Below, piece after piece: positions 40,054 to 62,855 of a stretch of 64,000 bases of DNA. The stretch covers positions 1,922,001 through 1,986,000 of the forward strand of contig CP136508.1 of assembly GCA_008011715.2 (NCBI GenBank), written 5' to 3'. Below the pieces are notes generated by a model, which worked only from the letters and a program-made list of their open reading frames with translations, had not been told where the DNA came from and did no database searches. How positions within the stretch are numbered: the first letter of the stretch is position 1; each line of letters starts with the position of its first letter. The DNA comes from [Empedobacter] haloabium. GTDB taxonomy: Bacteria > Pseudomonadota > Gammaproteobacteria > Burkholderiales > Burkholderiaceae_D. Made by a program: the position numbers and the translations under genes.

Positions 40054-40067
40054 TTGATCACGATCAT
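40054..40067 (+). promoter_or_regulatory. FNR/ANR-type box of the efflux operon
   Basis: TTGAT-CACG-ATCAT, one mismatch from the FNR consensus TTGAT-N4-ATCAA. A TATAGT at 40091-40096 is a good -10. It would place the transcription start near 40102, with the box centred at about -41.5, the class II activator position. Confidence 0.78.
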
Positions 40068-40143
40068 TGTCCCCGCCGGACCGCGCCGCCTATAGTAGCC
40101 CTGCGCCCGCATGTTGCGCCGCACAACCGTCCAGCCCCAGCCA

Positions 40144-41583
40144 ATGCACCGTCACCCCGCTACCCGACCCGCCGCATTCCTGCTGGCCGCCGCGCTGGCA
40201 GGATGTGCCGGCCCGCGCCAGCCAGTCATCCCCGAGCCCGTGCCGGCGGGCTGGCCGGCCGACGCCCCAGCCGACAGCGCCGGCGCCAGCGCAAGTACGC
40301 TGGGCTGGCGTGATTATTTCGCCGACCCGCCACTGCAAGCCCTGATCGCGCGCGGCCTGGCCTGCGGCAGCGATGCGCGCATCGCGGCGGCAAGGGTGCG
40401 CGAAGCGGCCGCGCTGGCCGGCCTGCAGCACGCGAACCTGTTTCCCGCCGTCGGCATTGGTGCACAGGGCCAGCGCGGCAAGCTGCCGCACGACCTCAGC
40501 CCGACCGGTCGCGAGCTGCTGAGCTCCCAGTACCAGGCCGGCGTGTCGGTCAGCTGGGAAGCGGACTTGTGGGGCCGCCTGGGCGCACTGGACGAAGCCG
40601 CCGCGCAGGCCTGGCTCGGCAGCGAAGCGGCCCGGCGCGCGGTGGCGCTGGCGCTGGTCGGCCAGATCGCCGAGCGTTACCTGGCGCTGCGCGAACTGGA
40701 CGAGCGCATCGTGCTGGCCGAACGCACGCTGGCCAGCCGCAACGATTCCTTGCGGATTTTCCGCCGCCGGGTCGAGGAGGGGGCCACCGCGCGGCTCGAC
40801 CTGGCGCAGGTGGAAACGCTGCAGACGCAGGCCGAGTCGCTGCTGGCGCAACTGCATCAGCAGCGCGCGCTGCAGGCCCATGCGCTCGACGTGCTGACAG
40901 CCGGCGGCGGCGAGCCGCCGCCGGAAAACGGGCGCTTCGACGACCTGCTGATCCTGGCGCCGCTCGCGCCCGGACTGCCGGCCCACGTGCTGCTGGCGCG
41001 CCCGGACGTGGCGGCCGCGGAGCGCCAGCTGCAGTCATTGCGCTACCAGGTCGACGCGGCCCGTGCCGCCTTCCTGCCGCGCATCACGCTGACCGGCAGC
41101 CTGGGCAGCGCCAGCGCCGAACTGGCCGGCCTGTTCGAGGCCGGCAGCAAGGCCTGGACGGTGGCGCCGGCGCTGGCGCAGCCGCTGCTCGACTTCGGCC
41201 GCAACCGCGCCAACCTGCGCGCCGCCGAGGCGCGCACCGAGGCCGCCTTGGCGACCTACGACAAGACCGTACGCACCGCATTGCGTGAAGTGGCCGATGC
41301 GCTGGCGTCGCGCCACTACCTGGCCGCCCAGGTGCGCACCGGCGAACGCGCGCTCGGCGCGCAGCGCGAGCGCGAGCGCCTGGCCCGGCTGCGTTACGAC
41401 AACGGCGCCACCACCTATCTCGACGTGCTCGACGCGCAGCGCGACCTGCTGCAGGCGGAGCAGCAGCAGGTGCAGGTCCGGCGCGCGCTGCTGTCGGCCC
41501 AGGTCGCGCTGTTCCTCGCGCTGGGCGGCGGCAGCGACGCGGCGGCCGGCGCATGCAATCAACCAGGACCGGATCATGGATAA
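40144..41583 (+). CDS. Outer-membrane efflux lipoprotein (OMF/TolC family, NodT type)
   Basis: Trimeric outer-membrane channel of a tripartite exporter. Start 40144 is preferred over 40111 because the predicted transcript begins near 40102 and the shorter form has a clean lipoprotein signal (FLLAAALAGC, Cys21). The 479 residues show the repeated OEP domains: LGWRDYFADPPLQALIARGL near 52, VSVSWEADLWGRLGALDEA near 136, and TLTGSLGSASAELAGLF and PLLDFGRNRANLRAAEA near 345. They close with LRYDNGATTYLDVLDAQRDLLQAEQ. It overlaps the HlyD gene by eight bases and opens the operon to 46492. Confidence 0.93.
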   Translation: MHRHPATRPAAFLLAAALAGCAGPRQPVIPEPVPAGWPADAPADSAGASASTLGWRDYFADPPLQALIARGLACGSDARIAAARVREAAALAGLQHANLFPAVGIGAQGQRGKLPHDLSPTGRELLSSQYQAGVSVSWEADLWGRLGALDEAAAQAWLGSEAARRAVALALVGQIAERYLALRELDERIVLAERTLASRNDSLRIFRRRVEEGATARLDLAQVETLQTQAESLLAQLHQQRALQAHALDVLTAGGGEPPPENGRFDDLLILAPLAPGLPAHVLLARPDVAAAERQLQSLRYQVDAARAAFLPRITLTGSLGSASAELAGLFEAGSKAWTVAPALAQPLLDFGRNRANLRAAEARTEAALATYDKTVRTALREVADALASRHYLAAQVRTGERALGAQRERERLARLRYDNGATTYLDVLDAQRDLLQAEQQQVQVRRALLSAQVALFLALGGGSDAAAGACNQPGPDHG

Positions 41584-42655
41584 GAAAACCTTGACACGCT
41601 GGCTCGTCATCGCCGCCGTGCTGCTGGCCGGCGGCGCCGGACTCGCGTGGGGCTGGCACCGGCTCGGCACGGCGGCGACGCCGGGCCCGGGCTTCATCAG
41701 CGGCAATGGCCGCATCGAGGCGACCGAGATCGACGTCGCGACCAAGCTGCCGGGCCGCGTGGCCGACATCCTGGTCGACGAGGGCGAGTTCGTGCAGGCG
41801 GGCCAGCCCTTGGCACGCATGGACACGCAGGCGCTGGTCGCCCAGCGCGACGAAGCCGCGGCACGCGCCCAGCAGGCGCGCGACGCGGTGGCGGGTGCCG
41901 CCGCCCAGCTGGCCGTGCGCGAAAGCGACCGTGCCGCCGCCGCCGCGGTCGTGGCGCAGCGCGAAAGCGAGCTGGATGCGGCGGGACGGCGCCTGCGCCG
42001 CTCGACGACGCTGTCCGCCGACGGCGCCGCGTCGGCCCAGGAGATGGACGACGACCGCGCTCGCGTGCGCGGCGTGCAGGCCGCGCTGGCGGCGGCGCAG
42101 GCGCAGGAACGGGCCGCCGTGGCGGCCATTGCCGCGGCCCGGGCCCAACTCGTGGGGGCCCGTTCGGCGGTGCTGGCGGCCGAGGCCACCACGGCGCGCA
42201 TCGAGGCCGATCTCGCCGATGCCACGCTGCTGGCGCCGCGCGCGGGCCGGGTGCAGTACCGGGTCGCCCAGCCGGGCGAAGTGCTGGGCAGCGGCGGCAA
42301 GGTGCTGAACCTGGTCGACCTGCGCGACGTCTACATGACCTTCTTCGTGCCCGAGACGGCGGCCGGGCGCATTGCCCTGGGCAGCGAGGTCCGCATCGTC
42401 ATCGACGCGGCGCCCGGCATCGTGATCCCGGCCCGGGTGTCGTTCGTGGCCAGCACGGCGCAGTTCACACCGAAGACGGTGGAGACGGCCAGCGAACGGC
42501 AGAAGCTGATGTTCCGCGTCAAGGCGCAGATCGACCGTGCCCTGCTGGAGCGTCACCTGTCTCAAGTGAAGACGGGCGTGCCGGGGGTGGCGTGGTTGCG
42601 CACCGATCCGGCGCAGCCATGGCCGGCCACGCTGACGTCGCGGCGGGCGCTGTGA
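41576..42655 (+). CDS. HlyD-family periplasmic adaptor subunit
   Basis: Membrane-fusion protein that links the ABC transporter to the OMF channel. 359 residues: signal anchor at about 9-27, biotinyl-lipoyl half ([30 protein letters not shown] near 41-70), an Ala-rich coiled-coil hairpin (about 80-200), the second lipoyl half ([18 protein letters not shown]) and a beta-barrel. It resembles YbhG/YhiI adaptors that partner RbbA/YhhJ-type ABC transporters. The stop overlaps the next ATG by one base (TGATG). Confidence 0.92.
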
Positions 42656-45366
42656 TGGAGGCCCCCGCGGTCGCGACGGTCGCCGGCCTGACGCTGCGCT
42701 ACCGCGGCATCGCCGCGCTCGACGATGTCAGCCTGGCGCTGCCGGCGGGGATCCTGGCGGGCATTATCGGCCCGGACGGCGTCGGCAAATCGAGCCTGCT
42801 CGCCGTGCTGGCCGGCGCGCGCCGCATCGTGCAGGGGCGGGTGCAAGTACTGGGCGGCGACATGGCGCAGCGGCGCCACCGCGCCGCCGTGTGCCCGCGC
42901 ATCGCCTACATGCCGCAAGGGCTGGGGCGCAACCTGTACCCGACCTTGTCGGTACGCGAGAACCTGGTGTTCTTCGCCCGCCTGTTCGGCCATGGCGGCG
43001 CCGAGCAGCGCCGCCGCATCGCGCTGCTGACCGAGGCGACCGGCCTGGCGCCGTTCCTCGAGCGCCCGGCCGGCAAGCTGTCCGGCGGCATGAAGCAGAA
43101 GCTGGGACTGTGCTGCGCGCTGATCCACGATCCGGACCTGCTGATCCTGGACGAGCCCACGACCGGCGTCGATCCGCTGGCGCGGGCGCAGTTCTGGGAC
43201 CTGATCGGCGCCATCCGCGCCACCCGGCCGCAATTGTCGGTGCTGGTGGCGACGGCCTACATGGACGAAGCGGCCCGCTTCGACTGGCTGGCCGCGATGG
43301 ACGGCGGGCGCGTGCTGGCCACCGGCACCCCGCGCGAACTGCTGGCGGCAACCGCCAGCGCGGACCTGGAACAGGCCTTTGTCGCGCTGTTGCCGGCGGC
43401 CCGGCATGGCCACGCGGCGCCGGCGCTGCCCGCGCGCGCCGGCGGCAGCGAAGAGGTCGCGATCGAGGCACGCGGGCTGACCTGCCGCTTCGGCGATTTC
43501 GTCGCGGTCGACGATGTCAGCTTTCGCATCCGCCGCGGCGAGATCTTCGGCTTCCTGGGCTCGAACGGCTGCGGCAAGACCACGACGATGAAGATGCTGA
43601 CCGGCCTGCTGCCGGCCAGCGCGGGCAGCGCCACGCTGTTCGGCCAGCCCGCGCAGGGCGGCTCGGTGGCGATGCGGCGCCGGGTCGGCTACATGTCGCA
43701 GGGCTTCTCGCTGTATGGCGAGCTGACGGTGTTGCAGAACCTGGTGCTGCACGCGCGCCTGTTCGGCGTGCCGGCGAGCGAGATCGGCGGCCGGTGCGAC
43801 GAGATGCTGCAGCGCTTCGGCCTGCGCGACGTGGCGGACACGCTGCCGGCGCACCTGCCGCTCGGTGTGCGCCAGCGCCTGTCGCTGGCGGTGGCAATGG
43901 TCCATCGCCCCGAGCTCTTGATTCTGGACGAGCCCACCTCGGGCGTCGATCCGGTCGCCCGCGACGCGTTCTGGCAGCTGATGCTGCAGCTGGCGCGGCG
44001 CGACGGCGTGACGATCTTCATCTCGACCCACTTCATGAACGAGGCGCTGCGCTGCGACCGCATCTCGCTGATGCACGCGGGGCGGCTGCTGGCCAGCGGC
44101 GCGCCGGCGGAGCTGATCCAGGCGCGCCAGGCGGCCACGCTGGAGCAAGCCTTCATCGCTTACCTGCGCGACGCCGGCGGCGCCACGGCGCCGCCCGATC
44201 CGCAGGCGCTGCGCCCGCCGCCCGCGCCGCCCCGGCGCGACGGTGGCGCCTCCCGGCTGCTGGCCTGGCTGTGGCGCGAGGCGCTGGAGCTGCGCCGCGA
44301 TCCCGTGCGGGCCACGCTGGCGCTGTGCGGCTCGCTGATCCTCCTGGTCGTGATCGGCGTGGGCATCAGCATGGACGTGGACAGCCTGCGCTTCGCGGTG
44401 CTGGACCGGGACGGCACGGCGCTGAGCCGCGACTACGCGCTCAACCTGGCCGGCTCGTCCTACTTCATCGAGCGCGCGCCGCTGGCCGACGACGCGGAAC
44501 TGGACCGGCGCATGCGCTCGGGCGAACTGGCGCTGGCGCTGGAAATCCCGCCCGGCTTCGCCCGTGCCGTCGCGCATGGCAGGCCGGTGCAGATCGGCGC
44601 CTGGATCGATGGCGCGATGCCGATGCGGGGCGAAACCGTGCAGGCTTACGTGCAGGCGATGCATGCGCAGTGGCTGCAGCAGCGCGCCCAGTACCGCCAA
44701 GGCAGCGCCGGCGCGGCGGCGCCGGCCGGCATCGAGACGCGCTTCCGCTACAACCCGGACGTGCGCAGCCTGCCGGCCATGGTGCCGGCGGTGATCCCGC
44801 TGCTGCTGCTGATGCTGCCGGCCATGCTGGCGGCCCTGGCGGTGGTGCGCGAGAAGGAAATGGGCTCGATCGTCAACCTGTACGTGACGCCGGCGCGGCG
44901 CGCCGAATTCCTGCTGGGGAAACAAATCCCCTACGTGCTGCTGGCCATGCTGAACTTCCTGCTGATGACGGCGCTGGCGGTGACGGCCTTCGACGTGCCG
45001 CTACGGGGCAGCTTTGCCTCGCTGTGCCTGGCGGCGCTGCTGTATTCGATCGCGTCGACCGGCATCGGGCTGTTGTCCTCGGCCTTCACGCGCAGCCAGA
45101 TCGCGGCGATCTTCCTGACGATGATCGGCACGATGATCCCGGCGATCCAGTTTGCCGGCCTGCTCAACCCTGTCGCGTCGCTGGAGGGTGCCGGCCGCGT
45201 GATCGGCGCCGTGTACCCGGCGTCGCACATGCTCACCATCAGCCGCGGGGTGTTCAGCAAGGCGCTCGGGCTGACCGACCTGGGGGCCGACTTCGCCGCG
45301 CTGGCGCTCGCCGCGCCCGTCATCGTCGGCCTGGCCATCGCGCTGCTGCCGAAACAGGAGCGCTGA
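42655..45366 (+). CDS. RbbA-like fusion: two ABC ATPase domains plus ABC-2 permease
   Basis: One 903-residue chain carries two ATPase domains and a membrane half. NBD1: Walker A GPDGVGKS at about 40, signature LSGGMKQK, Walker [17 protein letters not shown]2: Walker A GSNGCGKT near 302, a degenerate signature LPLGVRQR, Walker [14 protein letters not shown]. The ABC-2 permease (about 545-900) has one N-terminal helix, a large periplasmic loop and five helices at the C terminus ([19 protein letters not shown] and following). This is the architecture of E. coli RbbA/YhiH. In this operon it is better read as an exporter with the permease that follows it. Confidence 0.93.
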
Positions 45367-45367
45367 C

Positions 45368-46492
45368 ATGGAAGCCGTCAAACGCGTGCTGCGCCTGGGC
45401 GTCAAGGAGCTGTGGAGCCTGTGGCGCGATCCGATCATGCTGGCGCTGATCGTCTGGACGTTCTCGGTGGCGATCTGGATCGCCGCCACGGCGCGGCCCG
45501 ATACGCTCACGCACGCGGCGCTGGCGATCGTCGACGAGGACGTGTCGCAGCTGTCCTTGCGGCTGCGCCAGGCATTCGCGCCGCCGCAGTTCAACCCGCC
45601 GGCGCTGCTGACGCACGACGCCATCGACGCCACCCTGGACGCCGGCCGCCACACCTTCGTGCTGGTGATCCCGGCCAGCTTCCAGCGCAATGTGCTGGCC
45701 GGGCGCCAGCCCGCCCTGCAGCTCAACGTCGATGCCACGCGCATGAGCCAGGCGTTTACCGGCAGTGCCTATATCCAGCAGATCGCCCAGGGCGAGATCG
45801 CCGAGTTCCTGCAGCGCTACCGGGGCACGCCGACGGCGCCCGTCGAGCTGGCGCTGCGCGCGCGCTTCAACCCGGCCTTGTCCGAGCGCTGGTTCGGCGG
45901 CGTCATGGAGCTGGTCAACAACGTCACGATGGTGTCGGTGATCCTGGCCGGGGCCGCGCTGATCCGCGAACGCGAGCACGGCACCGTCGAGCACCTGCTG
46001 GTCATGCCCGTCACGCCGCTCGAGATCCTGCTTGCCAAGGTGTGGTCGATGGGGGCCGTCGTGCTGCTCGCCGCGCTCTTGTCGCTGGTCTTCGTCGTAC
46101 GCGGCGCCTTGGGCGTGCCGGTGGAAGGATCGGTGGCGCTGTTCCTGTGCGGGACCGCGCTGCACCTGTTCGCCACGACCTCGCTCGGCGTGCTGATGGC
46201 CACACTGGCGCGCAGCATGCCGCAGTTTGGCCTGCTGGTGATCCTGGTACTGCTGCCGCTGGAAATGCTGTCCGGCGCGACCACGCCGCGCGAGAGCATC
46301 CCGTTCGCCGTGCGCCAGCTGATGCTGCTGGCGCCCACCACGCATTACGTGGAGCTGGCGCAGGCGGTGCTGTACCGCGGTGCCGGCCTGGAGGTGGTGT
46401 GGCGGCCCTGCGTGGCGCTGGCCGCGATCGGCGCCGGCTTGTTCGTGCTGACCCTGACGCGGTTCCGGCATGCGATGGCGACCGGCCTGTAG
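45368..46492 (+). CDS. ABC-2 type permease (YhhJ-like)
   Basis: 374-residue membrane subunit: one TM at about 22-40, a periplasmic domain (about 45-175; DEDVSQLSLRLRQAF), and five TMs from about 178 to 370 with the ABC-2 motif EREHGTVEHLLVMPVTPLEILLAK near 204. It pairs with the permease half of the upstream fusion to make a heterodimeric pore. The OMF-HlyD-RbbA-YhhJ set is a complete exporter; the substrate is unknown (drugs or polyamines have been proposed for relatives). Confidence 0.92.
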   Translation: MEAVKRVLRLGVKELWSLWRDPIMLALIVWTFSVAIWIAATARPDTLTHAALAIVDEDVSQLSLRLRQAFAPPQFNPPALLTHDAIDATLDAGRHTFVLVIPASFQRNVLAGRQPALQLNVDATRMSQAFTGSAYIQQIAQGEIAEFLQRYRGTPTAPVELALRARFNPALSERWFGGVMELVNNVTMVSVILAGAALIREREHGTVEHLLVMPVTPLEILLAKVWSMGAVVLLAALLSLVFVVRGALGVPVEGSVALFLCGTALHLFATTSLGVLMATLARSMPQFGLLVILVLLPLEMLSGATTPRESIPFAVRQLMLLAPTTHYVELAQAVLYRGAGLEVVWRPCVALAAIGAGLFVLTLTRFRHAMATGL

Positions 46493-46531: not shown

Positions 46532-46588
46532 ATGACGATGGACGACTTGTCACATGCGCGCGCTCGCGCGTGGCGGGAGCGGTCATGA
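46532..46588 (+). CDS. 18-codon upstream ORF coupled to the NAD(P)H oxidoreductase gene
   Basis: ATG at 46532 has AGGAGAA at five bases, the best ribosome-binding site in the area. It encodes 18 residues (MTMDDLSHARARAWRERS). Its TGA overlaps the next gene's ATG (ATGA, 46585-46588). The peptide need not be functional; it may deliver ribosomes to the following gene, whose own RBS is weak. Confidence 0.5.
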   Translation: MTMDDLSHARARAWRERS

Positions 46589-47175
46589 CGGCGCGACGCA
46601 TCCTGCTGGTGCAGGGCCATCCCGACCCGGCCGGCGACCACCTCTGCCATGCGCTGGCCGCGGCCTATGCCGCCGGCGCCACCGCCGCCGGTCATACCGT
46701 CACGACGGTGACGCCGGCGCTGCTCGAGTTCCCGCTGCTGCGCAGCGCCGCCGAGTGGGAGCACGGCGGCGTGCCGCCCGGGCTGGCACAAGCGCAGGCC
46801 GCGCTCGGGCAGGCCGATCACCTTGTACTGGTGTTTCCGCTCTGGCTGGGCGACATGCCGGCGCTGCTGAAGGGCTTCCTGGAGCAGGTGGCGCGGCCCG
46901 GCTTCGCGCTGGCGCCGGACAGCCGCAACCCGCTGCGGGCCGGCCTGCTGAAGGGCAAGAGCGCGCGGGTGATCGTCACGATGGGGATGCCGGCCGCGTT
47001 CTACCGCTGGGTGTACCGGGCCCACAGCGTCAAGTCGCTGGAGCGCAATATCCTCGGCTTCGTCGGCTTCGCGCCGGTGCGGCACACGCTGGTGGGCACG
47101 GCCGGTCAGCTCGACGAGGCAGGCGTGCGGCGCTGGTGCGCGCGCCTGCGCCGGCTGGGGGCGCAGGCGCAATAG
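46585..47175 (+). CDS. Flavodoxin-fold NAD(P)H oxidoreductase (quinone reductase family)
   Basis: 196 residues of the NQO/MdaB/KefF family, FMN- or FAD-binding. N-terminal RILLVQGHPDPAGDHLCHALA with the phosphate-binding loop, LVFPLWLGDMPALLKGFLEQVARPGFA near 88-114, and a Gly-Met-Pro segment (TMGMPAAFYRW). It probably makes two-electron reductions of quinones or electrophiles. It lies 92 bp after the exporter operon on the same strand and faces the end of the first Usp gene. Confidence 0.88.
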   Translation: MTARRILLVQGHPDPAGDHLCHALAAAYAAGATAAGHTVTTVTPALLEFPLLRSAAEWEHGGVPPGLAQAQAALGQADHLVLVFPLWLGDMPALLKGFLEQVARPGFALAPDSRNPLRAGLLKGKSARVIVTMGMPAAFYRWVYRAHSVKSLERNILGFVGFAPVRHTLVGTAGQLDEAGVRRWCARLRRLGAQAQ

Positions 47176-48045: not shown

Positions 48046-48429
48046 TCAGCCGGGGTGGCGGTGCGGTACGCGTTCGGTGGACTCCTGGCACGCCACGCAA
48101 CTGTCGGCGGTGGGCACGGCCAGCAGGCGTGCGGCGGGAATGGCGGCGCCGCAGTGGACACAGGTGCCGTAGCGGCCCGTGGCGATGCGGTGCAAGGCGC
48201 CGTCGACCTGGCGCAGGCCACTCGTCTCGTGGCCCAGCCAGGCCAGGTCGTCGGCCATTTCCTCATAGGCTTCGCTCGGGTCGACGCCGTCGGCGAGGTG
48301 GGCGGCCAGCCCGGCGGGAACGTCCTGGCCGCCTTCGTGCAGGCGCTCGCGCAGTTGTCTGGCGATCAGGTCGCGGCGCTGCCGCAGTTCGCTGCACAGG
48401 GCATCGCGCTGCGCGGTGGTGAGTGCCAT
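48046..48429 (-). CDS. DksA/TraR-type zinc-finger protein
   Basis: 127 residues. The start at 48429 has GGAGACC at five bases and removes a non-conserved 22-residue extension. Central coiled-coil helices (about 5-90) carry SEAYEEMADDLAWLGHE-type sequence near the tip. The zinc finger is C-VHC-G ... CVAC (CVHCGAAIPAARL, then SCVACQE). DksA-like proteins enter the RNA polymerase secondary channel and modulate stringent promoters. In low-oxygen loci of Burkholderia similar genes accompany Usp genes. The tip has DD acidic residues, as DksA does, but function is unproven. Confidence 0.88.
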   Translation of the reverse strand: MALTTAQRDALCSELRQRRDLIARQLRERLHEGGQDVPAGLAAHLADGVDPSEAYEEMADDLAWLGHETSGLRQVDGALHRIATGRYGTCVHCGAAIPAARLLAVPTADSCVACQESTERVPHRHPG

Positions 48430-48500
48430 GCTGGTCTCCGTTTGTCGTTGCATCATGTGCCCACTGTATTGTGACGTGGCAGTGCTGTCAGCCAACCGGT

Positions 48501-48514
48501 TTGACTGAAGTCAA
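48501..48514. promoter_or_regulatory. FNR-type palindrome in the DksA-like / sensor kinase divergent spacer
   Basis: TTGAC-TGAA-GTCAA, a perfect 5+5 dyad. It could serve both the leftward dksA-like/usp operon and the rightward phosphorelay operon. It is the same sequence type as the box at 59854. Confidence 0.7.
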
Positions 48515-54602: not shown

Positions 54603-57114
54603 TGCCGGGCTGGCGGCGTGCCGTGGCCAGCTTGAACAGCTCCAGGGCCGCCACCGTGGCAAGGCCGATCGCGCCCGCCATCGCCAGCGTCGCGGGCGCC
54701 GGTGCCGCGAAGCGGAACAAGGCGGCAGCCGCGGGCACGTACAGCACCACCAGCAGCATCGCCAGCGCCGTGCCGGCAATGGCCCAGAACACCGGATTGG
54801 CGACCTTCAGCGCCGCCAGCACGCTGCCGTCGCGGGCCCGGTTCGACAGCAGCAGCGCCAGGTTGGCCAGCACCAGCGCGGCAAAGCCGAACGCGCGCGC
54901 CTCGGCCTCCGGCAGGTGCGTTACCGCGTAGGCATAGGCCGCCGCGACCATGACCAATACGCCCAGCCCTTCCAGCAAGGCATGGCCGATGGCGCGCCCG
55001 CCGAACAGCTGGCTCGAGCGCGCGCGCGGCGGCTTGCGCATGGCGTCGGGTTCGGCCGGTTCGTTCTCGAACACCAGGGCGCAGGCCGGATCGATCACCA
55101 GCTCCAGGAACACGATGTGCAGCGGGTACAGCAGCACCGGCCAGCCGAACAGCGCGGGCAGCAGGGCCATGCCGGCGATCGGCACGTGGATGGCCGCGAC
55201 GTAGGCCATCGCCTTGCGCATGTTGGCGAAGATGCGGCGGCCAGCCGCGATCGCCTCGACGATGGAGGTGAAGCGGTCGTCCAGCAGCGTCAGTTCGGCG
55301 GCTTCGCGGGCAACGTCGGTGCCGCGCAGGCCCATCGCGATGCCGACATCGGCCGCCCTGAGCGCCGGCGCGTCGTTGACGCCGTCGCCGGTCATCGCCA
55401 CCACGGCACCGCCGCGCTGCAGCGCCTGCACGATCGCCAGCTTCTGTTCCGGCACGATGCGCGCGCACACGGCCACCCCGGCCAGCCGTTCGGCCAGCGC
55501 GGCCGGATCGCCCAGTTCCAGCTCCGGACCCGTGGCAACGGCGCGCGCATCCAGGCCGGCCTGGCCGGCGATCGCCGCCGCCGTGTCGGGATGGTCGCCC
55601 GTGATCATCACCACGCGCAGCCCGGCGGCGGCGCAGGCCGCCATGGCGGCGGGGATTTCCGGCCGCAGCGGGTCCTCCAGCGCGCACAGGCCCACCAGTT
55701 CGAATGGCAAGCCGGCCGGATCCTCGGGCCAGGGGCCGGCGTGACGGGCCTGCGCGACAGCCAGCACGCGCAGCCCTTCGGCCGCCATGGCGGCGGCGGC
55801 CGCCAGCGCGGCGCCGCGCACGGCCGGCGGCGCGTGGCACAAGGCGATGACCGTTTCCGGCGCGCCCTTGGCGGCCAGCAGCGCCGCGCCGCCCTCGGGC
55901 GGCTGCCATGCCTGCATCAGTGCGCGCCGGTTCGAGCTCAGCCCGTATTCGTGCACCAGCAGCGCACCCGGCGCTGCTGGCGGTGCCAGTGCCGCATGGC
56001 GCTGCAGGGCGTGTTCGAGCGGGTCGTGCGAACGTTGCGGCGTGGCCAGCAGGGCCACGCGCAGCACCTCGGCCAGCGCCGCCGGCAGGCCCGGCGCGGG
56101 TGCGGCGGCGCTGCCGGCGCACCACAGGCGCCGCAGTGCCATGCGGTTTTCCGTCAGCGTGCCGGTCTTGTCGACGCACAGGACCGAGGTGGCGCCCAGC
56201 GTCTCGATCGCCGCCAGCCGGCGCGTCAGCACATGGCTGCGCGCCAGTCGCCACGCACCCAGTGCCGGGAACACCGTCAGCACCACCGTGAATTCCTCGG
56301 GCAGCACGGAGATGGCCAGGGCGACGCCGGCCAGCAGGGCCTGCAGCCAGTTGCCGTCGCGCCAGCCCACCAGCAGGACCAGCAGCGCGCTGGTGACCAG
56401 CCCGATCAGGGCGAAGCGCTTGGCCAGCAGGGCACTCTGGCGCTGCAGCGGCGATGGCGGGCGCCGCACCGCGCCCAGCGAGGTGCCGATGCGGCCGATT
56501 TCGCTGCGCGCACCGGTCGCGGTGACGCGGGCACGGCCCTGGCCCTGCACGACCAGAGTGCCGGAGTAGACCCAGGGCTGGTCGTCGCCACCTGGTCGCG
56601 CCGGGCCGGGCAGGTCCGGCGCGACCGCCTTGCGGACCGGTACGGATTCGCCCGACAGCAGCGACTCGTCGGCCATGATGCCGTGGCAGGACAGCAGCAG
56701 GGCATCGGCGGGCACGCGGGCGCCTTCGGCCAGCAGGATGATGTCGCCTGCCACCAGGTCGCGCGCCGGGATGCGCTGCTGGCTGCCGTCGCGCAGCACC
56801 AGCGCGAGCGGGCTGCCCAGTTCGCGCAGGGCCTGCAGGGCACGCTCGGTCTTGCCTTCCTGGTACAAGGTCATGCCAACGGTGGCGGCCACCATCAGCA
56901 TCAGGAAGCCGCCTTCCAGCGGCTCCCCCAGCAGCAGGTACAGCAGGGCGGCGCCGCACAGCAGCAGGAACATCGGTTCGCGCGCGGCGTCGGCCGCGAT
57001 CTTCCAGGCGGTGCGCGCCTCCCGTTCGGGCAGCGCATTCGGTCCGTCGCGCGCCAGCCGCCGTGCTGCCTCCGCGGCGGACAAGCCGTCCCGATCGGCC
57101 GCGCCGCCGCTCAT
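54580..57114 (-). CDS. Cation-transporting P-type ATPase (P2-like)
   Basis: 844 residues: N-terminal cation-ATPase domain (LARDGPNALPERE near 22), M1-M2 (about 48-90), actuator loop DESLLSGESVPV, M3-M4 with SVLPEEFTVVLTVFP, phosphorylation site DKTGTLTENRM (Asp315), hinge GDGVNDAPAL, and six C-terminal helices. There is no heavy-metal domain and no CPC motif, so Ca2+/Mg2+/monovalent-type transport is likelier than Cu or Zn; PEEF in place of PEGL is a known bacterial variant. The ATG overlaps the PHA synthase stop (57111-57114), so it is the last gene of the usp2-phaC-ATPase operon. Confidence 0.92.
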   Translation of the reverse strand: MSGGAADRDGLSAAEAARRLARDGPNALPEREARTAWKIAADAAREPMFLLLCGAALLYLLLGEPLEGGFLMLMVAATVGMTLYQEGKTERALQALRELGSPLALVLRDGSQQRIPARDLVAGDIILLAEGARVPADALLLSCHGIMADESLLSGESVPVRKAVAPDLPGPARPGGDDQPWVYSGTLVVQGQGRARVTATGARSEIGRIGTSLGAVRRPPSPLQRQSALLAKRFALIGLVTSALLVLLVGWRDGNWLQALLAGVALAISVLPEEFTVVLTVFPALGAWRLARSHVLTRRLAAIETLGATSVLCVDKTGTLTENRMALRRLWCAGSAAAPAPGLPAALAEVLRVALLATPQRSHDPLEHALQRHAALAPPAAPGALLVHEYGLSSNRRALMQAWQPPEGGAALLAAKGAPETVIALCHAPPAVRGAALAAAAAMAAEGLRVLAVAQARHAGPWPEDPAGLPFELVGLCALEDPLRPEIPAAMAACAAAGLRVVMITGDHPDTAAAIAGQAGLDARAVATGPELELGDPAALAERLAGVAVCARIVPEQKLAIVQALQRGGAVVAMTGDGVNDAPALRAADVGIAMGLRGTDVAREAAELTLLDDRFTSIVEAIAAGRRIFANMRKAMAYVAAIHVPIAGMALLPALFGWPVLLYPLHIVFLELVIDPACALVFENEPAEPDAMRKPPRARSSQLFGGRAIGHALLEGLGVLVMVAAAYAYAVTHLPEAEARAFGFAALVLANLALLLSNRARDGSVLAALKVANPVFWAIAGTALAMLLVVLYVPAAAALFRFAAPAPATLAMAGAIGLATVAALELFKLATARRQPGIRAPQPR

Positions 57115-58898
57115 GTCTGCAGCACGTAGCGGCCGGGAGCGGGCTCCAGGCCCACCGGGAGCGGTGGCGCGGCCACCAGCGGACCGGCCTGCCGGGCCAG
57201 CCAGGTCTCCCACGCCGGCCACCAGGAACCCTGCTCGACGGGGACGCAGGCGTGCCAGCGTTCGGCATCGATAAAGGCGGTGTCGTGCCGGTGCGTGGCG
57301 ACCTGGTAACTGCGGTTGCTGCTGTCCGGCGGCGCCACCACGCCCACGTTGTGTCCGCCCGAGGTCAGCAGGAAGGTCACGTCGGTATCGGCCAGCAGCA
57401 CGATCTTGTACACCGAGCGCCACGGCGCCACGTGGTCGGTCAGCGTGCCGACGGCGAACACGGGCACTTCGATGTCCGTCAACGCGACCGGACGGCCGCC
57501 GACCAGGTAGCGGCCATGCGCCAGGTCGTTGTTCAGGAACAGCTGGCGCAGGTATTGCGTGTGCATGCGGTAGGGCATGCGGGTGGCGTCCGCGTTCCAC
57601 GCGATCAGGTCGGAGTCGCGGTCCGGCAGGTTCAGCAGGTATTGCTTGAGCCGGCGCGACCAGATCAGGTCGTTCGAGCGCAGCAGCTGGAAGGCACCGG
57701 CCATCTGGCGCGTGTCCAGGTAGCCCTGGCTCCACATCGCCGCTTCCAGGTAGCTGACTTCGCTCTCGTCGATGAACAAGGAGAGCTCGCCGGGCTCGGT
57801 GAAGTCGACCTGGGCCGCGAGCAGGGTGATGCTGGCCAGGCGTTCGTCGCCGTCGCGCGCCATGGCCGCCGCGGCGATCGACAGCAGCGTGCCGCCCAGG
57901 CAGTAGCCGCAGGCATTGACCCGGGCCGCCCCGTTCTGGGCGCAGATCGTGTCGAGCGCGGCCATCACGCCGAGCTTGCGGTAGTCTTCCATGCCGAGCT
58001 CGCGGTCGCTGGCGGTCGGGTTCTTCCACGAGATCATGAAGACCGTGTGGCCCTGGTCGACCAGGTAGCGCACCAGCGAATTATGCGGCGACAGGTCGAG
58101 GATGTAATACTTCATGATCCATGCCGGCACGATCAGCAGCGGCTGCGCGTGCACCTGTGGCGTCACGGGGTCGTAGCGCAGCAGTTCGATCAGGTCGTTG
58201 CGCAGCACCACCTGGCCGGGCGTCACCGCCACGTCGCGGCCCGGCAGGTAACGGCTTTCGGGCCGCACCGCGCCGCTGGCCGCGGCCCAGTCGGTGGCGG
58301 CGCGGATCGCGCCGGCGACCAGGTTGGAGCCGCCGGCGGCCAGCGTCGCACCCTGCACCACCGGGTTGGTCGCCGGGAAGTTGGACGGCGCCACGCAATC
58401 GAGCAGCTGGCGGGTCACGAAGGTAACGACCTCGCTGTGGTGGCGCGACACGCCGCGCACCCCCATCGTGGCGTGGTGCCACCACTGCTGCTGCAGCAGG
58501 AAGCCTTGCGACAGCACGTTATAGGGCCAGCGTTGCCAGGCCGGATCGGTGAAGCGGCGATCCTGCGCCAGCGGTTCGATCACGTGCGACGGGTCGAGAT
58601 GCGGCTGGGCGGCCGCGGCCGCGTAGCGCCACCAGCGCGCCAGGCTGGTGGCGCCGTGCAGCGCCAGTTCCTGCTGTTTCGATGGGGCCAGCAGCAAATG
58701 GCTGGCCCAGTCGAACCAGGCGGTGGCCAATGCCGCCGGCGAGACCGAGCCGGTCATGCGTGCCAGCAGGGCGTTCAGCAGCAGGTCGGCGGCGGCGCTG
58801 TCGGTGCCCTGTTGCGGGGCGTCGTGCAGCGCGCCGCCCTGCCAGGCGCTGCCTTCGGGCTGGTAGGCGCAAACGGCGGTGAGAGGGGCGCGGGTCAT
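57111..58898 (-). CDS. phaC: Class I-type poly(3-hydroxyalkanoate) synthase
   Basis: Polymerises hydroxyacyl-CoA into storage granules. 595 residues. PhaC N-terminal domain contains WPYNVLSQGFLLQQQWW (about 124) and SNFPATNPVV. The catalytic lipase-like box GYCLGGTLLS has Cys333, followed by LLAAQVDFTEPGELSLF, and the later Asp and His in GTLTDHVAPWRSVYK and SGGHNVGVV. This gene and the reductase at 59889 give two of the three PHB steps; a thiolase is not in the window. It lies between usp2 and the ATPase, so it is probably a stress-inducible second synthase in addition to a main phaC elsewhere. Confidence 0.93.
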   Translation of the reverse strand: MTRAPLTAVCAYQPEGSAWQGGALHDAPQQGTDSAAADLLLNALLARMTGSVSPAALATAWFDWASHLLLAPSKQQELALHGATSLARWWRYAAAAAQPHLDPSHVIEPLAQDRRFTDPAWQRWPYNVLSQGFLLQQQWWHHATMGVRGVSRHHSEVVTFVTRQLLDCVAPSNFPATNPVVQGATLAAGGSNLVAGAIRAATDWAAASGAVRPESRYLPGRDVAVTPGQVVLRNDLIELLRYDPVTPQVHAQPLLIVPAWIMKYYILDLSPHNSLVRYLVDQGHTVFMISWKNPTASDRELGMEDYRKLGVMAALDTICAQNGAARVNACGYCLGGTLLSIAAAAMARDGDERLASITLLAAQVDFTEPGELSLFIDESEVSYLEAAMWSQGYLDTRQMAGAFQLLRSNDLIWSRRLKQYLLNLPDRDSDLIAWNADATRMPYRMHTQYLRQLFLNNDLAHGRYLVGGRPVALTDIEVPVFAVGTLTDHVAPWRSVYKIVLLADTDVTFLLTSGGHNVGVVAPPDSSNRSYQVATHRHDTAFIDAERWHACVPVEQGSWWPAWETWLARQAGPLVAAPPLPVGLEPAPGRYVLQT

Positions 58899-58925: not shown

Positions 58926-59756
58926 TCAATGCGCCAGCAGCAGCGGCATGGTCGTGCCGGCGAGCAGGTCGCGGGTGGCGCCGCCGGCGATCCATTCGCG
59001 ATAGCGGCTGTGGCCGTAGGCGCCCGCCACCAGCAGGTCCGCGCCGATTTCGCGGGCCAGGCCGAGCAACGCCGGCGCGGCGCCAACTTCGCTGCGCTCG
59101 CATACGACCTCCACCTCGACCCCATGGCGCGCCAGCCACGTGGCCAGGTCGGCGCCCGGCTGTTCGCCGTACAGGCCGTCCGTCTCGTCCGGATTGATCA
59201 GCGCGACCTTGACGGCGCGCGCCGAGCGCAGCAGGGGCAGAGCGCCGGTCACGGCGCGGGTCGCCTCCATGCTGCCGTTCCAGGCCACCACCACGGTGCC
59301 ACCGGCCGCGTCGCCGGGATAGTCTTCCGGCACCACGAGGACGGGACGGGTGCCGTGCAAGGCCACGAATTCCGGCAGGCTGGCGCCCAGGTGCAGGCGG
59401 GTCGGCGCGGCGCGGCTGACGACGATCAGGTCGGCATAGCGTGCCTCGAGCAGCAGCGCATGGCCGGCGTCGTCCTCGATCAGGCGCTGCTCCCAGGAGG
59501 CGATGCCGAGCCGCTCGACCTCGCGCGTGAACGCCGTCAGCTGGGCCTGGCCGTGTTCGACCAGCCGGTCGAAGTCGCTGTCCGGCAGTGCCGCCATCGG
59601 CGAAGTGCCGAGCAGTAAGTAGTTGCCGCGGCTGATGCCGGTCACGGCGCTGCCGACCAGATGGGCTTCATAACGGGTGGCAAGGCCGGCCGCCACCGCC
59701 AGGCGGGAACGCATCTGCGGCTTGTCGTCGACGTGGACCACGATGGTCTTGTACAT
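58926..59756 (-). CDS. Universal stress protein, tandem Usp domains (copy 2)
   Basis: 276 residues from ATG 59756 (MYKTIVVHVDDKPQM); a longer frame upstream crosses the FNR box and is rejected. Same architecture and near-identical landmarks to the Usp at 47182: SAVTG near 35, HGTRPVLVVP near 140, and GAYGHSRYREWIAGGATRDLL at the end. First gene of a leftward operon with phaC and the P-type ATPase. The FNR box at 59854-59867 is centred about 105 bp upstream of the ATG. Confidence 0.93.
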   Translation of the reverse strand: MYKTIVVHVDDKPQMRSRLAVAAGLATRYEAHLVGSAVTGISRGNYLLLGTSPMAALPDSDFDRLVEHGQAQLTAFTREVERLGIASWEQRLIEDDAGHALLLEARYADLIVVSRAAPTRLHLGASLPEFVALHGTRPVLVVPEDYPGDAAGGTVVVAWNGSMEATRAVTGALPLLRSARAVKVALINPDETDGLYGEQPGADLATWLARHGVEVEVVCERSEVGAAPALLGLAREIGADLLVAGAYGHSRYREWIAGGATRDLLAGTTMPLLLAH

Positions 59757-59853: not shown

Positions 59854-59867
59854 TTGACCTGGGTCAA
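59854..59867 (-). promoter_or_regulatory. FNR-type palindrome upstream of usp2-phaC-ATPase
   Basis: TTGAC-CTGG-GTCAA, a perfect dyad in the 132-bp spacer between the acetoacetyl-CoA reductase gene and usp2, both on the minus strand. It shares half-sites with the box at 48501. Confidence 0.72.
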
Positions 59868-59888: not shown

Positions 59889-60611
59889 TCAGCCCGGATA
59901 CAGCCCGCCGTTGACGTCGATCGTCGCACCGGTGATGTAGCCGGAGGCCTCGTCGGCCAGGAAGGCGCAGACGCGCGCGACCTCCTCGGGCCGGCCGAGC
60001 CGGCCGAGCGGTATGCCGGCCACGATCTGCTCCAGCACGTCCGGCCGTACCGCGGCGACCATCGCCGTGTCGCAGTAGCCGGGCGCGACCGCATTGACGG
60101 TGATGCCGCGCCGCGCGTTTTCCAGTGCGAGCGCCCTGGTGAAGCCGATCACGCCGGCCTTGGCCGCCGCATAGTTGACCTGGCCGGCCTGGCCCCGGCG
60201 CCCGTTGACCGAGGACAGGTTGACGATGCGTCCGTAACCGCGCGTGCGCATGCCTTCGATGACGGCTCGCGTCATGTTGAACATCGAGTCCAGGTTGGTG
60301 TGGATGACGTCCTGCCATTGCTCCTGGCTCATGCGGTGCAGCGGGCCGTCGCGCGTGATGCCGGCATTGTTGACAAGGATATCCACCGCGCCCAGTTGCT
60401 CGACGACGCGCGCCACGCCGCGCTGGCACGCCGCCTGGTCGGCCACGTCCCAGCGCAGCACGCGGATGCCGTGCTGCTGCGCGAACTCGGCAGCCGCCGC
60501 TTCGTTGCTGTGATACGTGGCCGCGACCCGATGGCCGGCCTGCTGCAATGCCACCGAAATCGCCGCGCCCAGCCCGCGCGTGCCTCCTGTCACCAATGCG
60601 ACCTTGCTCAT
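59889..60611 (-). CDS. phaB: Acetoacetyl-CoA reductase / SDR-family oxidoreductase
   Basis: NADPH-dependent reduction of acetoacetyl-CoA to (R)-3-hydroxybutyryl-CoA, the monomer for PHB. 240 residues: cofactor loop TGGTRGLGAAI at 8-18, NNAGITRD near 84, catalytic Ser-Tyr-Lys in NLSSVNGRRGQAGQVNYAAAKAG, and DVNGGLYPG at the end. The TRDG and GQ-GQ-NY wording matches PhaB more closely than FabG. Located beside phaC, usp2 and FNR boxes on both sides. Confidence 0.9.
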   Translation of the reverse strand: MSKVALVTGGTRGLGAAISVALQQAGHRVAATYHSNEAAAAEFAQQHGIRVLRWDVADQAACQRGVARVVEQLGAVDILVNNAGITRDGPLHRMSQEQWQDVIHTNLDSMFNMTRAVIEGMRTRGYGRIVNLSSVNGRRGQAGQVNYAAAKAGVIGFTRALALENARRGITVNAVAPGYCDTAMVAAVRPDVLEQIVAGIPLGRLGRPEEVARVCAFLADEASGYITGATIDVNGGLYPG

Positions 60612-60716
60612 GGATTCCTCCTTGTCCAGTGCGGGGCTCGATTGCCGCCGTCATGGCCAGCATACGGGCGCGGCGGCCAGCCGGCCGCGCGCCCGGCGGG
60701 AAAATTGCCGTGTCGT

Positions 60717-60730
60717 TTGATCCTGATCAT
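60717..60730. promoter_or_regulatory. FNR-type box between phaB and the hemerythrin-like gene
   Basis: TTGAT-CCTG-ATCAT, one mismatch from consensus, in the 235-bp divergent spacer. TACAGT at 60763-60768 is a possible -10 for the rightward gene. It may serve either or both directions. Confidence 0.72.
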
Positions 60731-60846
60731 GCGCGCCGCCGCGGCGGGCGCAAGGCGTGCAGTACAGTTGTCGTGGCCCGATGCGGCATCGGCATGGGCG
60801 GACGCGGGCATGACGCCGCGGTACTGCTGAACAACTGGAGAATGCA

Positions 60847-61254
60847 ATGGTTCGCGCACACTGGAGCCCCGACCTGCTGTTGGGGGAACCCGTCATGGAT
60901 ACGGCGCATCGCGCCCTGTATGACACGCTGGGCAAGCTGACCTTCGTGCCGGCGACCGATTTCGCCGCGGCCTACCATGCCTGCGTGGCGGCGCTCGAGC
61001 GCGACTTCCGCGAGGAAGAGGAGGCGATGGAACGCATGCGCTACGCCGCGCTGCGCGGCCATCGCGAACAGCACGCGCGAGCGCTGGCGGGGCTGCACCA
61101 CGCGGCGGCCGCGCTGGCCGAAGGCGATCCGCAGCCGGCGCACCATGCCGTCGACTTGCTGGCCGAATGGTTGCAGCTGCATATCACGACCATGGACCGG
61201 GCCCTCGTCATGGCCCTGCGACGGGCCCAGGGCGTGACGGCGCAGCCGGAATGA
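60847..61254 (+). CDS. Hemerythrin-like protein
   Basis: 135-residue four-helix bundle. Candidate diiron ligands: His21 (MDTAHRALYD), the Glu pair at about 57-58 (EEEEAM), His72 and His76 (GHREQH), His112 and Asp117 (LHITTMD). The His that usually precedes the Glu pair (H-F-x-x-E-E or H-D-F-x-x-E-E) is absent; the sequence there is ERDFREEEEAM. It may bind oxygen or NO, or be a modified form. In an FNR-controlled locus an oxygen-buffering or sensing role is plausible. Its stop overlaps the L,D-transpeptidase ATG by four bases. Confidence 0.85.
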   Translation: MVRAHWSPDLLLGEPVMDTAHRALYDTLGKLTFVPATDFAAAYHACVAALERDFREEEEAMERMRYAALRGHREQHARALAGLHHAAAALAEGDPQPAHHAVDLLAEWLQLHITTMDRALVMALRRAQGVTAQPE

Positions 61255-62855
61255 CGGGAACGTCCTGGCTGTCGCGGGCCTTGCCGTGGCGCGCCGTCCG
61301 GCACGGCGCTCTGCTGCTGCTCATCTGCGTGGGTGGCGGCGCCGTCGCGCAAGAACAGGACCCCGGGCAAATCCGCGCATTGCTGGCTGACCAGGCGGCG
61401 CAGGCGCCGGCCCGGCGCGAGGATGCCGCCGTGCTGGCGCGCTTCTACGCGGAGCGCGGCTACCGCCTGGCCTGGCGCGCATCCGCCGACGTGCAGGCCG
61501 CGCTGGCCCTGCTGGACGGCGCGGCGGACCATGGCCTGGAGCCGGCCGATTATGCGGCGGCGCGGGATGCCGTGGCGCGGCTGGGTGGCGGCGACGCGAG
61601 CGCCGCCACGGGTGCCGACGTCATGCTCAGCCGCGCTGTCCTGCGTTATCTGGTCGACCTGCATGCCGGCCGCACCCGCGGCACGGTGCTGTCGTCCGAC
61701 GCACGGCCCGAGCAACGTTTCGACGCGGCCGCGCTGCTGCAGGAAGCGCTTGCCGGTCATGGTCTGGCCGGGCTGGAGGCCCGAGCCGTGCCGCATTTCG
61801 GCTTGTATGGCCGGCTGCAGGACGCGCTGCGCCGCTACCGTGCGATGGCCGCGCAGGGCGACACGGCGGTGCCGGCCAGTGTCGCGCCGCGTACCGCTGG
61901 GGCCGACGCACGCGACAGCGCCGCCTTGCGACGCCGGCTGGTCGAGCTGGGCGACCTGGCCGACGGGCCAGGTGACGACGGGCAGCTGGTCGCGGCGCTG
62001 CGGCGCTTCCAGCAGCGTCACGGCCTGGGCGCGGACGGCATTGCCGGTCGCGCCACGCTGGCCGCGCTGAACGTGCCGCTGCGCGAGCGTGTGCGCCAAC
62101 TGGCCTTCGCGCTGGAACGGCTGCGCTGGCTGCCGGCGTTGCCGGAACGGCGCGTGGTGGTGATCAACCTGCCGTCGTACCGGCTGTGGGCGGTCGACCG
62201 TCACGCCGGGGAGGCACGGCCGGTGCTGGACATGCCGGTCATCGTCGGCAAGGCCCTGCGCACGCCGACGCCGGTGTTCATCGGGACGATGCGCCAGGTC
62301 GAGTTCAATCCGTACTGGAACGTTCCCCCCAGCATCCTGCGCAACGAGTTGCTGGCGCACGTGGCGCGCGATCCGGATTATCTGCGCCGCAACAATATGG
62401 AAGTGGTTCTGGCTGGCGCCGCGACGCAGGACGTCGATGCCGCAATCCTGGGCCGCCTGCGCAGCGGCGCGGCGCGGGTGCGGCAGCGCCCGGGGCCCGA
62501 CAACGCGCTGGGCGCCGTCAAGTTCGTGCTGCCGAACTCGATGAACATCTACCTGCACGGCACGCCGGCGCGCGCGCTGTTCGAACGTGCCCGGCGCGAT
62601 TTCAGCCACGGCTGCATCCGCGTGCAGGACCCGGCCGCGCTGGCCGGCTTCGTGCTGGTCGAGCAGGGCTGGGACGCGGCCGCGGTGGCGCAGGCGATGG
62701 CGCCGGGCACGACGCGGGTGGTCCGTCTGCAGGCGCCGTTGCCGGTAGTGATCTTCTATACGACGGCGATCGCGGAAGCCGATGGCACGGTAACGTTCCT
62801 GGCGGACGTGTACGGGCTGGATGCGGCGCTGGCGCGGCGCTGGGATGCGCCCTGA
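61251..62855 (+). CDS. L,D-transpeptidase (YcbB/LdtD-like)
   Basis: Periplasmic enzyme that makes 3-3 peptidoglycan cross-links. 534 residues with a signal anchor or peptide (about 17-34), an N-terminal scaffold domain (about 40-230), a peptidoglycan-binding domain (about 225-280; LVAALRRFQQRHGLGADGIAG) and the YkuD catalytic domain (about 300-480) with YLHGTPARALFERARRDFSHGCIRVQDP, where Cys is the nucleophile. It starts inside the hemerythrin-like stop (ATGA). 3-3 cross-linking is a known envelope-stress response, so inclusion in this operon fits a stress programme. Confidence 0.93.
   Translation: MTGTSWLSRALPWRAVRHGALLLLICVGGGAVAQEQDPGQIRALLADQAAQAPARREDAAVLARFYAERGYRLAWRASADVQAALALLDGAADHGLEPADYAAARDAVARLGGGDASAATGADVMLSRAVLRYLVDLHAGRTRGTVLSSDARPEQRFDAAALLQEALAGHGLAGLEARAVPHFGLYGRLQDALRRYRAMAAQGDTAVPASVAPRTAGADARDSAALRRRLVELGDLADGPGDDGQLVAALRRFQQRHGLGADGIAGRATLAALNVPLRERVRQLAFALERLRWLPALPERRVVVINLPSYRLWAVDRHAGEARPVLDMPVIVGKALRTPTPVFIGTMRQVEFNPYWNVPPSILRNELLAHVARDPDYLRRNNMEVVLAGAATQDVDAAILGRLRSGAARVRQRPGPDNALGAVKFVLPNSMNIYLHGTPARALFERARRDFSHGCIRVQDPAALAGFVLVEQGWDAAAVAQAMAPGTTRVVRLQAPLPVVIFYTTAIAEADGTVTFLADVYGLDAALARRWDAP

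Follow-up and report, generated by a model that had tools for sequence, protein, structure and literature searches.

The locus described here, an island with FNR-type boxes in the genome of the soil-type bacterium [Empedobacter] haloabium, has partial counterparts in other bacteria, among them the betaproteobacterium Herbaspirillum seropedicae. In that species, chromatin immunoprecipitation sequencing (ChIP-seq) and RNA sequencing (RNA-seq) identified dksA-phaC2-fabI, phaC1, phasin, usp, adhA, ompW1 and fixNOP as direct Fnr targets; Fnr1 and Fnr3 jointly activate its uspA genes, a group that contains no repressed promoter, and among its several FNR paralogues Fnr1 uses a strict palindrome, while for Fnr3 the end bases are less conserved (PMC5934665). 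The low-oxygen-activated (lxa) locus of Burkholderia cenocepacia is strain-dependent and was reported missing in strain H111 (PMC6127331, PMC3759415). The NmpRSTU regulon of Myxococcus xanthus includes genes for a universal stress protein (USP), hemerythrin, a P-type ATPase and cbb3 oxidase, as well as the relay genes themselves (PMC11841059).

We analysed a stretch of 64,000 nucleotides, called the window below (positions 1922001–1986000 of the single-contig 6.48-Mb genome, contig CP136508.1; window GC content 67.5%), and give positions within it unless stated otherwise. The island extends from approximately 40054 to 62855, and 4.06% of it is non-coding (925 of 22,802 bases, with the coding sequences as drawn here). 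We observed its genes, its boxes and their conservation, the key residues of its proteins and its position between two tRNA-Ser genes (Table 1). The comparisons indicate that it is a real, conserved, FNR-linked low-oxygen unit. We put a probability of about 78% on a movable low-oxygen survival island with its own sensing circuit, in which FNR would activate from four promoter spacers.

FNR-type boxes at operon heads

The preliminary description of this DNA placed four TTGAY-N4-RTCAW dyads at 40054, 48501, 59854 and 60717, and all four are found exactly there, outside the coding sequences. We looked for boxes in the 350 bp upstream of island-gene matches in relatives; these relatives were picked for matching island proteins, and the frequencies hold for loci of this kind and not for genomes in general. 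Perfect boxes lay ahead of the operon-first genes hk1, usp2 and dksA in 15/22, 12/16 and 6/9 relatives, respectively. The internal genes rr1 (0/22), hk2 (0/18), luxR (0/22), abcA (0/3) and perm (0/4) had none in a total of 69 upstream regions, and neither had the cation ATPase gene in five relatives. The other counts were 4/9 for usp1, 7/32 for fnr, 3/18 for phaC, 2/6 for hhe, 2/4 for ldt, 1/2 each for oep and phaB, 1/4 each for hlyD and adh, and 1/3 for nqr. Exporters of relatives are preceded by TTGATCAGGATCAT (G133, a genome of the same genus, taken as Pseudoduganella flava) and by TTGATCACGATCAT, identical to the window's box (G125), and the corresponding dksA/hk1 spacer of G133 holds TTGACTTCGGTCAA. 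With boxes kept at operon heads and absent from the internal genes examined, this pattern supports the proposal that the exporter and the L,D-transpeptidase belong to an FNR-linked regulon. It is this conservation, and not clustering, that decides in favour of the boxes being real.

In the window, TTGAYN4RTCAW gave 9 strand-matches, compared with a mean of 0.13 and a maximum of 2 in shuffled sequence. A genome-wide search by pattern, not by weight matrix, gave 90 strand-hits against 22 for a reversed-motif control; the genome holds 64 distinct box sites, 26 of them perfect. The island has 4 boxes where 0.23 are expected (Poisson P = 9 × 10−5 for the island stretch taken alone). Across the genome the clustering was not significant, as four sites fell within 20.7 kb in 6.3% of random placements (P = 0.063), and another four FNR-type sites are clustered within 18 kb at genome positions 2833736–2851742. 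Because 6.3% of random placements match it and a second cluster is present, the number of boxes alone is not proof; the clustering by itself is only suggestive, and we dropped clustering statistics as proof of a regulon. Two further dyads of the window lie beyond the island at 6443 and 30682, and six within 54 kb have a genome-scan P of 0.0096.

The genome-scan P-value would suit dyads that arose by chance in GC-rich spacers. We find that explanation scarcely credible: the boxes are conserved at operon heads, none occurs at the internal genes examined, and the reversed motif falls far behind, both genome-wide (22 versus 90 strand-hits) and at the transpeptidases described below (0 versus 16).

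We inspected 25 further box sites of the genome, 7 of which overlap a mechanical frame of >150 codons. Scanning 20 proteins from frames beside boxes identified a family for 19. The neighbours include an oxidase subunit of the COX1 family, the stress proteins Usp and Hsp20, hemerythrin, a globin beside a kinase, phasin, a polyhydroxybutyrate (PHB) depolymerase-type esterase and OmpW. A chemotaxis receptor, a diguanylate cyclase, a P-type ATPase and a CoA-ligase-type protein are also among them, as are a pseudouridine synthase, peptidase U32, MCRA, PEP-CTERM, Gcw_chp and a molybdopterin-binding protein. The set leans towards low oxygen and PHB, which supports the reading of the motif. Related members of the Crp/Fnr family can share TTGAT-N4-ATCAA, and two additional Crp/Fnr-type matches occur elsewhere in this genome, so the boxes might serve a nitric-oxide regulator or another member of the family. 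The linked island regulator has all four cluster cysteines, and elsewhere in the genome many genes with boxes belong to oxygen limitation, which makes this very improbable.

Two promoter geometries

A distance of 22–23 nt from box to −10 hexamer corresponds to a box centre at −41.5 to −42.5, and 32 nt to a centre at −51.5. The exporter box is 23 nt from TATAGT, centred at approximately −42.5 if TATAGT is the −10; the exporter promoters of G133 and G125 are of the same spacing class. Class-II-like spacing, as in the earlier placement of this box at about −41.5, was seen for this promoter only; the other three boxes lack such geometry. At the dksA, usp2 and hhe promoters a −10-like hexamer lies at 32 nt, with the box centre at −51.5.

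Relatives show the same division. Past 69 boxes at island-type genes, TATAAT-like hexamers (≥4/6) peak at 22 nt (12%) and at 32 nt (19%). TACANT stands exactly 32 nt from the box in 13/75 promoters (window's dksA, usp2 and hhe included; ≤2 at other offsets), mostly the same genes across different relatives, and TGAC occupies the −35 position at 10 nt in 11 of the 75 (next highest 5, at 37 nt). Genus-wide, among the 150 matches listed, the spacing was 21–23 nt in 74, 32 nt in 25, 34 nt in 24 and elsewhere in 27 (range 17–47). With spacings split between approximately −42.5 and −51.5, a single class-II promoter type for every box was dropped. In 24 of the 150 matches listed the box precedes TACAATG by 34 nt, in a conserved element that resembles a promoter; by eye, most of the 24 look like a single orthologous promoter.

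The longer spacing raises the question of whether activation is mainly due to the relay's LuxR-type regulator, with the FNR boxes fine-tuning or repressing from approximately −51.5, upstream of an intact −35. In the repressed E. coli gene ndh an FNR site lies near −50.5, and at dksA, usp2 and hhe the hexamer at 32 nt, in many cases with TGAC as −35, leaves the box outside the promoter core. Set against this, no conserved additional motif except TGAC is visible by eye between box and −10, and the co-activated Herbaspirillum uspA genes form a group in which none is repressed (PMC5934665). We think this arrangement rather unlikely. Activation by FNR from the −51.5 boxes is a step that we infer only, and the two geometries allow the mode of FNR action from such a distance to be addressed cleanly.

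Candidate oxygen sensors and the relay

The four cysteines and the E--SR triad attributed to the island FNR were confirmed. The motif, written CCCCESR, is present in the window and in 27/29 aligned relatives, the other two having CCCCECR. The best Protein Data Bank (PDB) matches of the protein are solved FNR chains (178 bits to PDB 5cvr), and it is 79% identical to the FNR of Pseudoduganella flava, the nearest relative with a species name that came to light. An oxygen-labile cluster and box binding are putative properties of the island FNR.

The second candidate sensor is the kinase hk1. Its PAS-B domain can be aligned with the FixL haem PAS (PDB 8js5), the His and Arg positions included. By analogy with FixL we take the His to be the haem ligand and the Arg the oxygen-contact residue; both are kept in 24/24 aligned relatives. 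hk1 does not reach the NCBIfam FixL equivalog cut-off (249.6 versus 850 bits). Downstream of hk1, the receiver Asp of rr1 is present in 23/23 aligned relatives, and the Asp and His of hk2 are kept wherever an aligned piece covers them (31 pieces). The set of kinase, receiver, hybrid receiver-kinase and regulator is complete, and its order is conserved in relatives.

The product of a second FNR gene, at genome positions 6152169–6152858, shares the cysteine pattern and has an ESISR helix (50% identity over residues 17–246). The preliminary description had the cluster under one oxygen switch. This does not hold, as there are at least three candidate sensors, namely the haem-PAS kinase, the island FNR and the second FNR with the same motifs. 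Because the island itself has two kinds of candidate oxygen sensor and the box is shared with the second FNR, the control circuit is, on present comparisons, more complex than a single switch.

It is also conceivable, though we consider it unlikely, that the main-genome FNR works the boxes, which would still be real, and that the island FNR and its relay are vestigial passengers or act on other genes. The retained cysteine pattern and helix of the second FNR, and its location approximately 4 kb from the boxed COX1-family oxidase gene, are in keeping with this, as are seven genomes (G141, G129, G123, G172, G182, G161 and G154) that have usp2-phaC without a relay or FNR match in 30–34 kb, five of them with a perfect box before usp2. 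Two features speak for a working island circuit instead: the five-gene cassette is conserved with intact residues over wide distances, and its promoter is boxed in 15/22 relatives, which suggests feedback.

Envelope genes and FNR-type boxes

The preliminary description suggested a coupling of oxygen limitation to envelope remodelling. The L,D-transpeptidase of the window has a scaffold domain, a peptidoglycan (PG)-binding domain and a YkuD domain with the catalytic SHGC, and the His/His/Cys residues are present in 18/18 aligned relatives. At E ≤ 1e-75 there were 72 matches in 65/392 family genomes; 67 of the 72 (left out: G379, G388, G269, G342 and G295) were examined together with G156, giving 68 loci. 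A perfect box lay at −400 to +150 of the estimated start in 16/68, compared with 0/68 for the reversed motif and 0/68 for perfect boxes in an equal-size window inside the gene. With one box end relaxed, the respective numbers were 19, 0 and 2. All 16 boxed transpeptidases fall in one clade of 22 (support 100/99), for which P = 5 × 10−11 if relatedness is ignored, a value that is too small given near copies. Among seven genomes with two examined transpeptidases, exactly one was boxed in G234, G363, G367, G374 and G408, and neither in G111 and G397.

The tree excludes the window transpeptidase from this large boxed clade and groups it with that of G125 (100/99) and, at lower support (93/79), with that of G156. 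In the window, G125, G156 and G330 the box is farther upstream with a gene in between, which encodes hemerythrin (window), acetate kinase (G125) or Usp proteins (G156 and G330); boxes >400 bp upstream were looked for in 12/68 loci. The tree suggests that FNR linkage of such transpeptidases probably arose at least twice, and an ancestral link with later losses may be the alternative.

The RbbA-like exporter subunit was matched in 100/392 family genomes. We took the upstream DNA of 30 of the 102 matches and of the partial exporter of G125 (31 loci). A box, perfect or with one end relaxed, lay within 400 bp in 13/31, the window included, a count taken without a control, and a perfect box lay within 1.5 kb in another 6/31. 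Transpeptidase and exporter are ≤30 kb apart on one contig in 8/18 genomes having both, the window included (by our arithmetic, approximately 1% would be so placed by chance in a genome of this size). In the hemerythrin-like protein one di-iron ligand His is replaced by Asp in the window and in 7/9 aligned matches, the other two lacking most ligands; the full di-iron ligand set of bacteriohemerythrin was not found in the window protein.

The boxes at exporters (13/31) and at transpeptidases (16/68, against none for the reversed motif) support the envelope coupling, and the comparisons make the link appear stronger than the earlier work could show. Oxygen limitation is tied to peptidoglycan crosslinking and export by a comparative signal, beyond gene proximity. 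We propose tentatively, at somewhat less than even odds, that low oxygen triggers a dedicated wall change, in which a hypoxia-specific L,D-transpeptidase, brought under FNR control at least twice in the family, works with an RbbA-type exporter in a portable island with a haem-PAS phosphorelay and FNR. We found no description of an FNR-controlled L,D-transpeptidase in the open-licence literature searched.

Gene content and position of the island

The genes listed in the preliminary description were right. The list was incomplete, having overlooked the cation P-type ATPase (54580–57114, minus strand) and the flavodoxin-type oxidoreductase (46585–47175, plus strand).

Table 1. Features of the island and its surroundings, in window coordinates.
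Feature	Position	Strand	Basis or remark
tRNA-Ser(CGA), left bracket	33767..33856	+	ARAGORN; 90/90 identical to right copy
RHS-repeat gene, 1628 aa, left tRNA-Ser to island	34785-39671	-	domain scan
FNR-type box TTGATCACGATCAT, exporter promoter	40054..40067	+	pattern match; centre ~-42.5 relative to TATAGT
Outer membrane efflux protein (NodT/OEP family), oep	40144..41583	+	PF02321; TIGR01845 above cut-off; alternative start ATG 40111
HlyD-type periplasmic adaptor	41576..42655	+	PF16576, PF13437, found on longer frame 41285-42655
RbbA-like exporter subunit; fusion of an ABC-2 membrane domain with two ABC ATPase domains	42655..45366	+	PF00005 (two stretches), PF12698
ABC-2 type permease (perm)	45368..46492	+	PF12698
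Flavodoxin-fold oxidoreductase	46585..47175	+	PF02525
Universal stress protein usp1	47182..48021	-	PF00582, two stretches
DksA/TraR-type zinc-finger protein (dksA)	48046..48453	-	PF01258
FNR-type box TTGACTGAAGTCAA, spacer of dksA (-) and hk1 (+)	48501..48514	.	towards dksA: TGAC at +10, TACAGTG at +32
hk1, PAS-PAS histidine kinase, FixL haem His + Arg in PAS-B	48573..50078	+	domain scan, alignment to FixL
rr1, single-domain response regulator	50075..50488	+	PF00072
hk2, hybrid kinase receiver-PAS-HisKA_3-ATPase	50485..51957	+	domain scan
LuxR/NarL-type response regulator	51950..52588	+	PF00072, PF00196
FNR-type regulator (fnr), four Cys, E--SR helix	52730..53500	+	profile scan; solved-FNR match
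Zinc alcohol dehydrogenase (adh)	53559..54602	+	PF08240, PF00107, found on longer frame from 53484
Cation-transporting P-type ATPase, between adh and phaC	54580..57114	-	PF00122, PF00689
PHB synthase PhaC	57111..58898	-	PF07167
Universal stress protein usp2	58926..59756	-	PF00582
FNR-type box TTGACCCAGGTCAA, ahead of usp2-phaC-ATPase	59854..59867	-	TACACTG at +32
SDR / acetoacetyl-CoA reductase-like (PhaB)	59889..60611	-	PF13561
FNR-type box TTGATCCTGATCAT, spacer of phaB (-) and hemerythrin-L,D-transpeptidase (+)	60717..60730	+	TACAGT at +32 towards hhe
Hemerythrin-like protein (hhe), one ligand His -> Asp	60847..61254	+	PF01814
YcbB-type L,D-transpeptidase (scaffold, PG-binding, YkuD; SHGC)	61251..62855	+	domain + motif match
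tRNA-Ser(CGA), right bracket	62971..63060	+	ARAGORN; genus search

The cassette hk1-rr1-hk2-luxR-fnr recurs among relatives with its neighbours shuffled. In G144 the gene set is the ATPase, usp, adh, the relay, fnr, phaC and hhe. A locus of approximately 29 kb in G399 holds the transpeptidase, adh, fnr, the whole relay, usp2, phaC, the oxidoreductase, more usp genes, phaB and the exporter, with seven perfect boxes; oep, dksA, hhe and the cation ATPase have no match in it. G133 retains the exporter, the oxidoreductase, usp1, dksA, the relay, fnr, the ATPase, phaC and usp2, and there is no match to adh, phaB, hhe or the transpeptidase within 34 kb.

At least two matches to the tRNA-Ser occur in 57/74 genus genomes. 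They are ≤1.1 kb apart in 48/74, 1.8–39.6 kb apart in 8 (window included) and on two contigs in one. G133 has a pair approximately 1 kb apart on contig 14, and its island is on contig 5. Because close pairs are common in the genus (48/74), duplication of the tRNA by the island is less likely than insertion of the island between two tRNA genes that were already paired. Split and close pairs, together with the placement in G133, make the gap resemble an insertion hot spot and the island a moved unit; by this comparison it is apparently a movable, tRNA-associated unit. No integrase was found among the proteins scanned, in which no search was aimed at integrases. The repeat around the tRNA-Ser copies (33761–34009 and 62965–63214) runs on downstream of them with GC-rich inverted repeats, and spans 252 bp at 94% identity with the tRNA included.

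A proposed circuit and the evidence against it

In the circuit that we favour, a fall in oxygen would change the activity of the haem-PAS kinase hk1, and its signal would pass through the receiver protein and the hybrid kinase to the LuxR-type regulator. In parallel, FNR would assemble its iron-sulphur cluster and dimerise, and the island copy, the main-genome copy or both would bind the dyads in the four promoter spacers. Six transcription units would then be activated by FNR: the exporter with the oxidoreductase; dksA-usp1; the relay-fnr-adh operon itself, which would provide positive feedback; usp2-phaC-cation ATPase; phaB; and hemerythrin-L,D-transpeptidase. The cell would enter a resting state in which it stores PHB, makes stress proteins, exports ions and solutes, and has an L,D-crosslinked wall. 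Box binding, the sign of regulation, the limits of the transcription units, the order of the relay and the physiological effect are all predictions of this scheme.

Several observations weigh against it, beginning with the genome-wide P-value for clustering given above. hk1 is without a box in 7/22 relatives; six of these seven loci are outside the genus, and the relay may therefore predate its FNR box. The counts in relatives are not independent, as a single spacer with one box often lies between divergent hk1 and dksA, and neither are the relatives themselves; the usp2 loci of G172, G182, G161 and G154 share an identical box at an identical distance (−284). In G359 the transpeptidase and the exporter are present with zero boxes across 35 kb. 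Class-II spacing is absent at three of the four window boxes, and the hk1 and phaB promoters have no −10 at either spacing. Hexamers resembling a −10 at 21–24 nt were found for 15/69 boxes versus a mean of 7.4 for other offsets, a modest enrichment (comparison windows were four wide, offsets starting at 17–27 excluded; their maximum of 19 is explicable by the 32-nt peak). Directly upstream of 52/68 transpeptidases there is no perfect box; the three relaxed-only transpeptidases are outside the boxed clade, and with one end relaxed 2/68 inside-gene windows match too. Finally, 12/31 exporters have no box within 1.5 kb.

If the favoured circuit is right, a low-oxygen programme and its sensors would travel together in one apparently movable package, and responses of the dormancy type may be spread and reassembled by the shuffling of modules around one shared DNA box.

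Comparison with known systems

The preliminary description held that such a unit had not been described. That claim has to be narrowed, since usp, DksA, PhaC and phasin genes are already proven Fnr targets in Herbaspirillum (PMC5934665). It stands for the complete unit, the transpeptidase link and the haem-PAS relay with built-in FNR, for which we found no description in the open-licence papers searched. Likeness to Herbaspirillum lies in the Fnr-linked usp, dksA and PHB genes and in the several FNR paralogues, whereas the targets there are listed as separate promoters and here form one island; transpeptidase, hemerythrin and histidine kinase are unmentioned in the main text of that study (PMC5934665).

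The lxa locus of B. cenocepacia J2315 is likewise a large low-oxygen cluster with Usp proteins (PMC6127331, PMC3759415). Compared by its published description, it is a 50-gene cluster (BCAM0275–BCAM0323) with an Anr-like regulator, BCAM0049, that is outside the cluster by its number, whereas FNR is inside the island; the text on lxa mentions neither transpeptidase nor hemerythrin nor FNR (PMC6127331). NmpRSTU of M. xanthus resembles the island relay in having a haem-requiring kinase, a receiver-type partner, a hybrid receiver-kinase and a response regulator. It differs in its protoglobin sensor and NtrC-like sigma-54 output, compared with a FixL-type PAS and LuxR-type (GerE) output in the island, and an FNR gene is unmentioned in the account of its operons, whereas the island relay is followed by fnr (PMC11841059). 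The Anr regulon of Pseudomonas has Anr boxes at PHB genes; its text does not present it as one island, nor mention transpeptidase, hemerythrin or universal stress proteins (PMC6588701).

With FixLJ-FixK the island shares the haem His and Arg of PAS-B, and a gene of the Crp/Fnr family that comes after a receiver regulator of the LuxR type. Unlike the island FNR, FixK is not known to keep the cluster cysteines. The island relay also has two additional steps, and hk1 scores far below the FixL cut-off.

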